Below are positions 60,258 through 64,000 of a stretch of 64,000 nt of DNA, in pieces. Source of the DNA: Neptunitalea chrysea. GTDB taxonomy: Bacteria; Bacteroidota; Bacteroidia; Flavobacteriales; Flavobacteriaceae. A program made the translations under genes and the position numbers. Position 1 is the stretch's first letter; each line of letters starts with the position of its first letter. Below the pieces are notes generated by a model. That model was not told the DNA's origin, searched no databases, and was given only the letters and a program-made list of their open reading frames with translations. Where the stretch lies: contig NZ_BRVP01000001.1 of NCBI RefSeq assembly GCF_027924145.1, forward strand, positions 124,001 through 188,000, in the 5' to 3' direction.

Positions 60258-60376
60258 TCGGAGTAAACCAACCTTTCACGATAACATCTTATACCAGTTT
60301 CAGACACCATTTTTAAGACGGTATGCCTTTTAAGGTATACTAAAATAGTTAGATGATTTAATTGATATAGTATAAA

Positions 60377-61381
60377 ATGAGCAGGATTGAAGAGGCGTTA
60401 CAGAAACGTATTTTAGTATTAGATGGAGCCATGGGAACCATGCTGCAACGCTTTAAATTTGAAGAAGAAGATTTTAGAGGAGAACGATTTAAAGATTTTG
60501 CGCATCCTCTAAAGGGAAATAATGACTTGCTTTCTATTACACAACCCGAAGCAGTAAAGTCGGTTCATAAAGAGTATTTTGAGGCAGGTGCAGATATTGT
60601 AGAAACCAATACATTTTCTGGTACTACCATTGGTATGGCAGATTACCATATGGAAGATTTGGTCTATGAGTTAAACTATCAATCGGCTAAAATAGCTAAA
60701 GAAGTTGCTGATGAGATATCTGCTAAAGAGCCAGAGAAACCTCGTTTTGTAGCAGGTTCAATTGGTCCTACTAACAGAACCGCCAGTATGAGTCCAGATG
60801 TAAATGATCCAGGATATAGAGCGGTAACTTTTGATGGGTTAAAAACGGCCTACAAGCAACAAGTTGAGGCTTTAATAGATGGTGGAGTAGATTTATTATT
60901 GGTAGAAACCATTTTTGATACCCTAAATGCAAAAGCAGCTTTGTTTGCTATAGAAGAGGTAAAGGAGGAAAGAGCCGTAACTACTCCAGTCATGGTGTCA
61001 GGTACCATTACAGATGCTTCTGGTAGAACGTTATCAGGGCAAACTGTAGAAGCTTTTTTAATTTCAATATCGCATATTCCTATTTTAAGTGTTGGATTTA
61101 ACTGTGCTTTGGGAGCAGATCAATTACAACCTTATTTAAAGAGATTAGCTCAGAATACAGAAGCAGCCGTTTCTGCGCATCCTAATGCTGGGTTACCAAA
61201 TGCCTTTGGCGAATATGACCAGACACCAGCGCAAATGCAAGAGTTGATACGCTCTTATATGGATGAGCATTTAGTGAATATTATTGGGGGATGTTGTGGT
61301 ACCACACCAGACCATATTAAGCTAATTGCTGAATTGGCGACTGAGTATAAACCAAGAACTTTTGCAGAAGTATCGAAATAA
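60377..61381 (+). CDS. Methionine synthase, homocysteine-binding module (split MetH)
   Basis: 334 residues corresponding to the N-terminal homocysteine S-methyltransferase domain of MetH, here a separate gene. It shows [80 protein letters not shown] and the zinc ligands C243 (GFNCALGAD) and C306-C307 (GGCCGTT). It is under the SAM-I riboswitch, and its stop overlaps the next start as TAATG, so the two parts are translated together. Confidence 0.95.
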
Positions 61382-64000
61382 TGAAGATAGAAGAAACAAA
61401 ATATCTAAAACTATCAGGCTTAGAACCTTTAGTGGTAACCCCTGAGAGTAATTTTATAAATGTAGGAGAACGTACGAACGTAACGGGGTCTCGTAAGTTT
61501 TTACGATTAATAAAAGAAGAGCAGTACGATGAAGCACTGGATATTGCCAGGAATCAGGTAGAGGGTGGTGCTCAGATTATTGATATAAACATGGACGAAG
61601 GAATGTTAGATGGCGTATATGCCATGACAAAATTCCTAAATCTGATTGCTGCAGAACCAGATATTGCCAGAGTGCCTGTAATGATTGATAGCTCTAAATG
61701 GGAGATTATTGAAGCTGGATTAAAAGTAGTACAAGGAAAAGGGGTGGTAAACTCCATTTCGCTTAAAGAAGGGGAAGCTTTGTTTATAGACCATGCCAAA
61801 AAAATTAAGCGTTACGGGGCTGCTGTTATTGTAATGGCGTTTGATGAGGTTGGTCAGGCAGATACATATGAGCGTAGAATAGAGATTTGTAAAAGATCGT
61901 ACGATATATTGGTGGATAAAGTAAAGTTTGCTCCACAGGATATCATTTTTGATCCGAATATATTTCCGGTGGCCACAGGGATGGAAGAGCATCGTAAAAA
62001 TGCACTTGATTTCTTTAGAGCTACCCAATGGATTAGAGAAAATTTACCACATGCGCATGTTTCAGGTGGGGTGAGTAATGTATCGTTTTCTTTTAGAGGT
62101 AATAATACGGTACGGGAAGCCATGCATGCAGCATTTCTATATCATGCCATTCAGCATGGAATGACCATGGGAATTGTGAATCCAGAAATGATCGAGGTAT
62201 ATGATCAGGTTGATAAGGAACTTTTGACCTATGTAGAAGATGTACTGCTAGACAGAAAAGACGATGCTACTGAACGACTTTTGGAATATGCTGAAAGTAT
62301 TAAAGGTGATGGTAAGGTAATTGCCAAACAAGCGCAAGAATGGCGTAGTGGTTCTATTCAGGAACGAATTATACATGCATTGGTAAAAGGATTAGATGAG
62401 TTTATTGAAGTTGATGTAGAAGAAGCCAGACAAGAAGTTGCTAAACCTATTATGGTGATTGAGCAACATTTAATGAATGGTATGAATGTAGTAGGCGATT
62501 TGTTTGGTAGTGGAAAAATGTTCTTACCACAGGTGGTAAAGTCGGCCAGAGTAATGAAAAAAGCAGTGGCTTATCTTTTACCATTTATAGAGGAAGAAAA
62601 ACGCCCTCCGGTCCCCAAAGGGGGAGTAAAACCTACTTCATTTTGGGAAACTGCGGATCCTCTGAATTATGGTCTATTAAAGGAGTTTGTTAAGGGATTA
62701 AGATATCAAGAGCCAACAGAAGCAGAAACAATTCTATGGGAATACTTAGAGAATAAACAACTTGAAGGATATAATTTTAGAAGACAACATATTATAGGAA
62801 ACTATATTGCGGATTTTGTTTGCTTGAAAGAAAATTTAATTATTGAAGTTGATGGTTTAATTCATCAGTTACCTGAAAATAAAATAAGTGATGAAGAAAG
62901 AATAAAATGGTTAAATTCTCAGGGATATCATGTTCTTCGATTTACTAATGAAGAAGTAATAGGTGCTATTGATACAGTTTTACAAAGAATTTTGCGCGGT
63001 CTACAAGCTCCCCTGTCTGGGGCGAGGGGGGCTGGTAAAGTATTAATGGCTACCGTAAAAGGAGATGTACATGATATTGGTAAAAATATTGTATCGGTGG
63101 TATTGGCCTGTAACAATTTTGAGATAATTGATTTAGGGGTTATGGTACCACCTGAAAAAATTATAGAAACCGCACAGCGTGAGCAGGTGGATATTATTGG
63201 GTTAAGTGGACTAATAACGCCGTCTTTAGATGAGATGGTGTATCTAGCTAAGGAATTAGAACGTTTAAATATTAGCATTCCGGTAATGATTGGTGGCGCC
63301 ACTACTAGTAGAGCACATACGGCTGTGAAAATAGCTCCTGAATATAAGGATGCTATTGTACACGTAAACGATGCATCAAGAGCCGTAACTGTAGCAAGTA
63401 GTTTATTGCAACCTGATACCAAAGCAGGATATACTAAAAATATACGAGAAGAATACGATAAACTAAGAGAAGGCTATTTAAATAGAAGTAGAGAAAAGAA
63501 TTTCTTAAGTATTTCAGATGCCAGAAAAAATAAGTTTCCGATAGATTGGGATGCTTATGTACCTTTAAAGCCTAATTTTATTGGGGTAAAGCAAATAAAA
63601 GTATCCTTATCAGAACTAGTACCTTATTTTGACTGGACACCATTTTTCCAATCTTGGGAGTTACATGGAAAGTTTCCTGAAATCTTAGAAGATAAAATAG
63701 TAGGAGAACAAGCTACCTCATTATATGCCGATGCTCAGAGTTTATTAAAGCAAATTATAACAAAGAAATGGTTTACTGCAAAAGGCATAGTAGGTATATT
63801 TCCTGCTAATCAGGTAAACGATGACGACATCTTGGTAAAGGATGAAAACGGTGAAGAGCTTGCTACGTTTTTAACGTTACGGCAACAATCGCAAAAAACG
63901 AAAGGGGCTCCAAACATTGCCTTAGCAGATTTTGTGATTCCGGAGGATAAAGGAGTTACTGATTATGTTGGTTGTTTTTGCGTAACTGCTGGTTTTGGAG
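61381..64000 (+). CDS. metH: Methionine synthase, folate/B12/activation modules, with inserted DUF559 domain (partial)
   Basis: The frame runs from ATG 61381 to the end of the window without a stop, 873 residues so far. Residues 20-285 are the pterin domain ([57 protein letters not shown]). Residues 300-407 are the B12 cap ([20 protein letters not shown], ending [11 protein letters not shown]). Residues 408-551 are foreign: a DUF559 domain. The B12 domain resumes at 552 ([20 protein letters not shown], with cobalt ligand H564) and continues to [20 protein letters not shown]. An activation domain starts near 710 and is cut off by the window. All MetH motifs on both sides of the insert are intact, so the enzyme may still work. 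Confidence 0.93.
62603..63032 (+). mobile_element. In-frame insertion carrying a DUF559 (Vsr-like) domain inside metH
   Basis: About 430 bases interrupt metH between the cap and B12 domains without breaking the frame. The encoded domain has the DUF559 pattern: [49 protein letters not shown] and [12 protein letters not shown], with E489, D491, H495 and R507 preserved. The ends are GC-rich in an AT-rich genome: GCCCTCCGGTCCCCAAAG with GGGGGAG at the left, and at the right a sequence ending GGGGCGAGGGGGGC. The right end read in reverse complement resembles the left end (about 18 of 25 positions), so they are imperfect inverted terminal repeats. No intein splice residues are seen. No transposase is encoded. 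Confidence 0.8.

Follow-up and report, generated by a model that had tools for sequence, protein, structure and literature searches.

The window, that is, the whole stretch of DNA analysed here, comprises 64,000 nt of Neptunitalea chrysea from contig NZ_BRVP01000001.1, and the genome of this organism is referred to below as the own genome. The methionine synthase encoded at its end is split, with an ORF for the homocysteine domain lying directly upstream of metH. The metH frame that begins at position 61381 stays open through a foreign insert up to the end of the window (873 aa) and is 1040 aa long when the whole contig is read. The features of this locus are as follows.

60377 to 61381, forward strand: separate ORF with the homocysteine-binding domain of methionine synthase, S-methyl_trans (Pfam PF02574, 5e-100)
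61381 to 64000, forward strand: metH, the host gene, with pterin, B12-binding and activation domains; it runs off the window
62602 to 63030, forward strand: in-frame insert of 143 codons (codons 408-550), placed by codon phase and by comparison with 31 insert-free alleles
62602 to 62628, no strand assigned: left GC-rich end, translated as the linker RPPVPKGGV (pLDDT below 50 at residues 409-420 in the MetH model)
62612 to 62625, no strand assigned: short palindrome TCCCC-AAA-GGGGGA in the left end, read from the sequence
62641 to 63006, forward strand: DUF559 nuclease domain with an N-terminal TADPxxYxLLKE motif, from Pfam, alignment and a structural model
62845 to 62865, forward strand: likely catalytic residues E489, D491 and H495 (ExDGxxH motif), invariant in 80 aligned rows
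63006 to 63033, no strand assigned: right GC-rich end, which forms an imperfect inverted repeat with the left one and gives PLSGARGA on translation (pLDDT below 50 at residues 544-549 in the MetH model)

The preliminary description of this DNA had reported a foreign DUF559 stretch in frame inside metH without a frame break, and this holds because the frame is open and the stretch has no counterpart in insert-free relatives. Its place was also given correctly but its exact limits were not, as the insert spans 62602-63030 and 143 codons and not 62603-63032 and about 144 codons. Pfam assigned residues 327-399 of MetH to B12-binding_2, 436-541 to DUF559 (9e-33) and 552-643 to B12-binding, so that DUF559 sits between the two B12-binding domains, and the insert matched PF04480 (DUF559) with 112.9 bits against a curated cut-off of 20.6. 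The residues that follow, A551-G552-K553, resemble the native continuation, which is AGK in relatives. Ordinary MetH had been said to have a short linker of about ten residues at this place and indeed the linker is 11 residues long in 27 of the 31 insert-free alleles read, while the other four have 12 residues (two alleles) or 17 (two alleles). The insert substitutes for several of these linker codons, no target duplication was seen at the metH insert when it was compared with the insert-free alleles, and the exact ends vary slightly among the metH lineages. In an alignment of 40 MetH fragments the insertion site is flanked by two blocks of invariant columns (fragment residues 93-109 and 265-285).

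The metH junction was found in 116 of 149 family genomes, four of which have an insert (G000, G015, G047, and G146) while metH is in one piece in the other 112; 30 of these uninterrupted alleles were fetched and read. In the only other genome of the same genus that was compared metH is also uninterrupted. It had been reasoned earlier that the insert would be an old fusion if all relatives carried it with no empty site, and these empty-site alleles show that this is not the case. The own genome has one DUF559 in total. A blastn search of it with the insert returned the insert itself and eight chance-like matches (E 0.06 to 0.8), and the proposed check for other copies in this genome thus gave no convincing match. 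Since it is the sole DUF559 of the genome and its ends are worn and imperfect, the own copy may no longer be mobile. PF01717, the domain of the second, MetE-type methionine synthase, was not found in the own genome, which is 99% complete, whereas the same search was positive in 10 of 14 control genomes; therefore, the own MetH is probably needed by the cell. In addition, each of 13 genomes that bear an insert in LeuRS has one LeuRS match. Because of the missing PF01717 and the single LeuRS matches, it is probable that host enzymes carrying an insert are functional.

The residues E489, D491, and H495, which had been named as likely to be catalytic, are present in the insert and their columns are invariant across the 80 aligned relatives. 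The ExDGxxH motif is retained in 92 of the 96 in-frame loci counted. It has been lost with the frame retained in three decayed LeuRS copies (L052, L054, and L093) and in one MetH copy (L091), while in L051, which comes from a draft that is 64% complete, the LeuRS frame is broken. The dN/dS of the insert domain was 0.03-0.23 in the 19 computable pairs of 21, many of them with dS nearly saturated, and the domain is under purifying selection. By profile the domain matched 3hrl (3e-31) and I-Bth0305I (9e-7), and the PADLOC homing endonuclease model matched it as well (9e-5). A Foldseek search with the model of the domain (pLDDT 84) gave 3hrl, a DUF559 protein, at 1.8e-8, the catalytic domain of I-Bth0305I at 1.6e-4, and Vsr at 0.13. 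The kinship had been described as Vsr-like, but Vsr is not the nearest group because the EDxHD homing endonuclease I-Bth0305I is closer in fold, and judged by profile and predicted fold the DUF559 domain is homologous to it. In the model of the MetH fragment DUF559 folds apart from the rest, but the overall pTM was 0.49 and the placement of the domain in that model is therefore uninformative. The Pfam scan found DUF559 and no transposase domain in the insert.

The insert in metH is one of many. PF04480 is present in 72 of the 149 family genomes. When in-frame inserts were used for scanning, 75 of 395 genomes from the order matched (E up to 1e-18), as did 49 of 395 from the phylum (E up to 1e-35), and among the 59 phylum matches 35 are in open frames of at least 800 aa. 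A scan of reference genomes gave more than 550 matching stretches, of which the best 80 were retained. The 174 loci analysed were the best matches of several scans or were chosen by frame length, and proportions among them are not population estimates. DUF559 is in frame in 96 of these loci, which fall into eight host families: MetH (44), LeuRS (23), RecG (8), MetRS (6), CinA (5), IleRS (4), adenine deaminase (4), and a UvrD-like helicase (2). Host identity was assigned by Pfam for one locus each of MetRS, CinA, adenine deaminase, IleRS, and the UvrD-like helicase, and by conserved motifs for the remainder. Among the MetH inserts, 40 are in the same linker as in the own metH, three are in the activation domain and one is in the homocysteine domain. 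Single hosts, identified by Pfam, are ValRS, acetyl-CoA synthetase, aldehyde dehydrogenase-MaoC, HsdR, and DegT aminotransferase, the last with two loci at two sites. DUF559 is also fused terminally, to the N-terminus of HemD in seven loci and to the C-termini of HisD and IspG. The named carriers include records of Christiangramia, Leeuwenhoekiella, Marivirga, Flavobacterium, Pedobacter, and Prevotella. From these comparisons, the metH insert is apparently a member of a selfish cassette family that has repeatedly invaded the same loops of important bacterial enzymes, and the cassettes seem to remain in the finished protein and not to be spliced out.

Several other loci were noted. In the seven hemD-linked loci (L004, L009, L011, L017, L018, L028, and L095), DUF559 is just upstream of hemD, in frame, with GC-rich inverted repeats around it, and these seven form one clade outside that of the in-frame inserts. 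In L295, 31 nt that resemble two outer cassette ends joined together are in frame, and we infer that this is the scar of a deleted cassette. In six loci (L146, L155, L156, L162, L168, and L317) the LeuRS loop from WIGxSxGA to FTTRPDT has short, repeat-like stretches in frame without DUF559, whose peptides are, for example, SEAKQSH, CHSALDAES, and MLNQVQHD; it seems that palindromic repeats in general can land in this loop. In the recG of G592 (L302) the loop has 23 residues where 15 are usual, and it is unlike the cassette ends.

The ends of the own copy had been described as imperfect GC-rich inverted repeats, each of them a hairpin. The inverted repeat stands but the hairpins of this copy are weak: compared with shuffled sequences the left one is no better (z -0.23, and 0.43 in a wider window) whereas the right one is better (z -3.0, and -1.8 in a wider window). 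For this reason the ends have to be judged from the relatives. Of 93 loci with an in-frame insert, 32 reached an inverted-repeat score of at least 30, and so did 36 of 77 other loci, those of free-standing DUF559 genes that also lie between such ends, while control stretches taken 500 bp further out gave 0 of 91 and 0 of 75, respectively. When end partners were swapped between loci the score was still reached in 190 of 1383 cases for the in-frame set and in 44 of 1139 for the others because the loci share end types. The own metH locus scores 17 and the test does not single it out; about two thirds of the in-frame loci, the own one included, fail the test singly. An example of the ends is AGCCCCCTAACCCCC-AAA-GGGGGAA on the left with its reverse complement on the right. 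The palindrome CCCCCNAAGGGGG is in 8 of 11 genomes with 2 to 33 copies, while the control with the reversed pattern gave none in all 11, and it is often in nuclease-free inverted pairs that are 47-96 bp apart. In G359, 12 of its 15 matches are in six inverted pairs, one of which is the metH cassette. The own genome lacks the exact palindrome.

A tree was built from 88 domains, leaving out L051, L052, L053, L054, and L093, which are decayed, broken or a probable intein, and one short row. In this tree 43 in-frame inserts form one clade (support 100/94), the clade of the own insert, and they group by target site, with one change for RecG, two for MetH and three for LeuRS. Those of the UvrD-like helicase fall within the LeuRS group, and L088, a MetH insert, adjoins RecG. 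On the side of the host, the ten insert-bearing metH genes are scattered among 31 empty ones such that eight changes are needed, seven of them forced by strong branches. Paired insert and host trees were made for 37 of the 40 MetH loci, leaving out L206, L210, and one locus with short flanks. In AU tests on these 37 loci the insert data rejected the strong host splits (0.001) and so did the reverse test (2e-63), but six strong splits are common to both trees. Since these six splits are shared while the trees conflict, the descent of the MetH inserts, as far as it can be read from the sequences, is vertical over short times and lateral over longer ones.

Movement is seen best in recG. The cassette regions of G211 and G334 differ at 4 positions in 470 nt (0.9%) whereas their flanks differ at 140 in 1931 nt (7.3%; P 4e-11), and dS is 0.029 for the insert and 0.415 for the host. 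Judged by this divergence, the computation shows one recent movement of the recG cassette. The high identity ends within about 20 nt of the cassette, with no clear co-conversion tract beyond, and there is no clear tract either between the own metH and the same-genus allele. Among the 11 pairs profiled the recG pair is the sole clean case and several others have an insert divergence like that of the host; similarly, among 21 pairs the synonymous divergence of the insert is below that of the host part in several and similar or higher in others. In the genus of G211 and G334 recG was found in 117 of 121 genomes, and of the 30 best matches, which were read, 5 have the cassette and 25 do not, the other 87 being known by frame length alone. 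In G556, a recG that has the cassette groups with insert-free alleles. The earlier proposal was of a mobile element in a tolerated loop that keeps the frame, probably stays in the protein and may spread by a homing-like cut. Its mobility is supported by inserts at the same site in many genera, by the conflict between insert and host trees, and by the recently moved recG copy.

The in-frame nesting, the empty alleles, the many host genes, the site-specific lineages and the conflict with host trees come directly from the computation, and so do the homology to a homing endonuclease and the ends common to nuclease-free pairs. Based on these findings, we consider it likely that the insert is a homing element that does not splice, with palindromic ends that serve as linkers once translated and a nuclease that is carried as a passenger domain. 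The proposed cassette would consist of an EDxHD/DUF559 endonuclease between two inverted-repeat hairpin ends, and it would sit in a variable loop of a conserved gene, beside codons that are strictly conserved. Translated in the frame of the host, the ends would give linkers rich in proline and glycine, and the host enzyme would carry the nuclease as a passenger domain. This nuclease would recognise the conserved sequence of cassette-free alleles, either in its own cell or in DNA that has been taken up, and break it, and repair from a cassette-bearing copy would install the cassette in the same frame. An occasional landing in a new gene would start a new site lineage, and old copies would lose the catalytic residues while keeping the frame or be deleted to a scar. 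The own copy would likewise stay in the protein and may have moved by the homing route.

The main rival to homing is transposition by the ends, in which the hairpin ends make a REP-like or MITE-like element mobile and DUF559 is the enzyme that moves it; the same loops would then be used again and again through a preference for certain targets and the survival of tolerated insertions. The ends speak for it, being inverted repeats with internal palindromes, as do the nuclease-free inverted pairs of CCCCCNAAGGGGG in 8 of 11 genomes, the free-standing DUF559 genes between such ends, and the new sites that arise, as with the UvrD-like helicase inserts nested in the LeuRS clade. However, inserts from the same site group together and those from the same genome do not, there was no sign of a target duplication, and Pfam found no transposase domain in the insert; on balance we think that this explanation is rather unlikely. 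A mix of the two is also possible, in which homing refills a known site and rare end-driven jumps found new ones.

A history of old domain fusions, passed on by vertical descent and retained because the host enzyme makes use of them, would account for the purifying selection, for the six splits in common with the host tree and for the frame being kept in copies without catalytic residues (L052 and L054), but it is very improbable given the empty site in the same-genus genome and in 112 of the 116 family genomes, the many unrelated host enzymes, the conflict between insert and host trees, the recent movement in recG and the scar in L295. We regard as slightly less probable still an unrecognised element of the intein or intron type that is removed from the protein or the RNA, even though the patchy same-site distribution in conserved genes is like that of inteins and L053 (G125:C1:234000-239000) has a DUF559-type nuclease in a probable intein (Intein_splicing 2e-6, below the Pfam cut-off). 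The preliminary description had noted that the insert lacks intein splice residues, and this is so: it starts with Arg and ends with Arg-Gly before Ala, and the Pfam scan of the own MetH gave no intein domain. Rfam likewise gave nothing for 60300-64000 at E values up to 1, and the open frame and the selection at the protein level argue against removal of either type. An artefact of assembly or annotation might be considered since the source assembly is a draft of 88 contigs, but the insert is inside a contig of 264,851 bases and independent genomes of named organisms show this arrangement too, which makes the chance of this negligible.

Among the known systems, I-Bth0305I has the homologous catalytic domain (9e-7 by profile, 1.6e-4 by predicted fold), but it is annotated as a mobile intron protein whereas the metH domain is bare and translated inside a host enzyme where no intron or intein was found. 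According to the available part of its description, I-Bth0305I has an extended multi-domain structure and a target of nearly 60 bp (PMC3943268). The known EDxHD enzymes described there have long extra DNA-binding regions, and the 120-residue domain of the metH insert is without them, which counts against homing. The nearest published concept found is the ShiLan element of a phage methylase, which in the accessible text is embedded in a gene, stop-free and apparently non-splicing, with a hidden homing-type nuclease (PMC11855218). That nuclease is of the HNH type, out of the host frame and in a non-essential phage methylase, whereas the metH-type cassette has DUF559 in frame in conserved bacterial enzymes, with palindromic ends. 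REPs, REPINs/RAYT, and CGTC- and GTAG-tagged repeats are similar in that they are small palindromes, often in inverted pairs and some of them inside genes, and the CGTC repeats, in the part of the account available, have no dedicated transposase (PMC3733652). The interspersed palindromes in inverted pairs that are a feature of REP/RAYT are present in 8 of 11 genomes but not in the own genome, and unlike REP/RAYT with its tyrosine (HUH) transposase the insert holds a DUF559 nuclease and nothing else by Pfam. The cassette ends are not assigned to either the GTAG or the CGTC family. Rickettsia palindromic elements are also palindromic DNA in frame in genes that likely make functional proteins, and the portion of PMC3733652 that deals with them mentions no nuclease. 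A published section on inteins places a DUF559 gene of Thermosynechococcus in the EDxHD homing endonuclease family, and the available text of that account describes no in-frame non-splicing inserts or palindromic ends (PMC9403480). In the open-access literature, with subscription journals and preprint servers outside the scope, we found no published description of in-frame DUF559 cassettes or of their palindromic ends.

A wider reading is that DUF559 proteins supply the mobility enzyme that has been missing for C-rich hairpin repeats of the CCC-TAA-CCC type, a large superfamily spanning Bacteroidota, Alphaproteobacteria and Cyanobacteria, with non-autonomous, autonomous and gene-invading forms; this we put forward tentatively, as a reading with somewhat less than even chances, and the basis for it beyond Bacteroidota is thin. 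Of 39 plasmid records with a match, five were inspected for ends; two of these have strong inverted repeats around the DUF559 gene (Sphingomonas and Sinorhizobium), one has a weaker visible pair (Synechocystis) and two, both from Azospirillum, have a hairpin pair on one side only. On the Sphingomonas plasmid (L311, 1405-1890) the DUF559 gene is between sufB and sufC with the strong inverted repeat around it, and on the Sinorhizobium plasmid (L312, 1310-2040) there is a full hairpin pair on each side of the gene, with an inverted-repeat score of 101. Phages gave only three weak matches. If this reading is true, then the nuclease-free end pairs would be the non-autonomous form, the free-standing genes between end pairs the autonomous form, and one lineage the gene-invading form, which is translated within conserved enzymes as a passenger domain.

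On the common view, a homing element that sits in a conserved gene depends on an intron or an intein to take it out. The DUF559 family suggests another route of persistence, namely, a variable loop beside invariant codons where the frame is kept and the palindromic ends supply the linkers. The cassette family would thereby mark, in natural proteins, the places where conserved enzymes tolerate the insertion of a domain. It would also assign a function to DUF559, a domain that has had none, and connect a nuclease, in a way that can be tested directly, with bacterial palindromic repeats of a class for whose movement there is no explanation.
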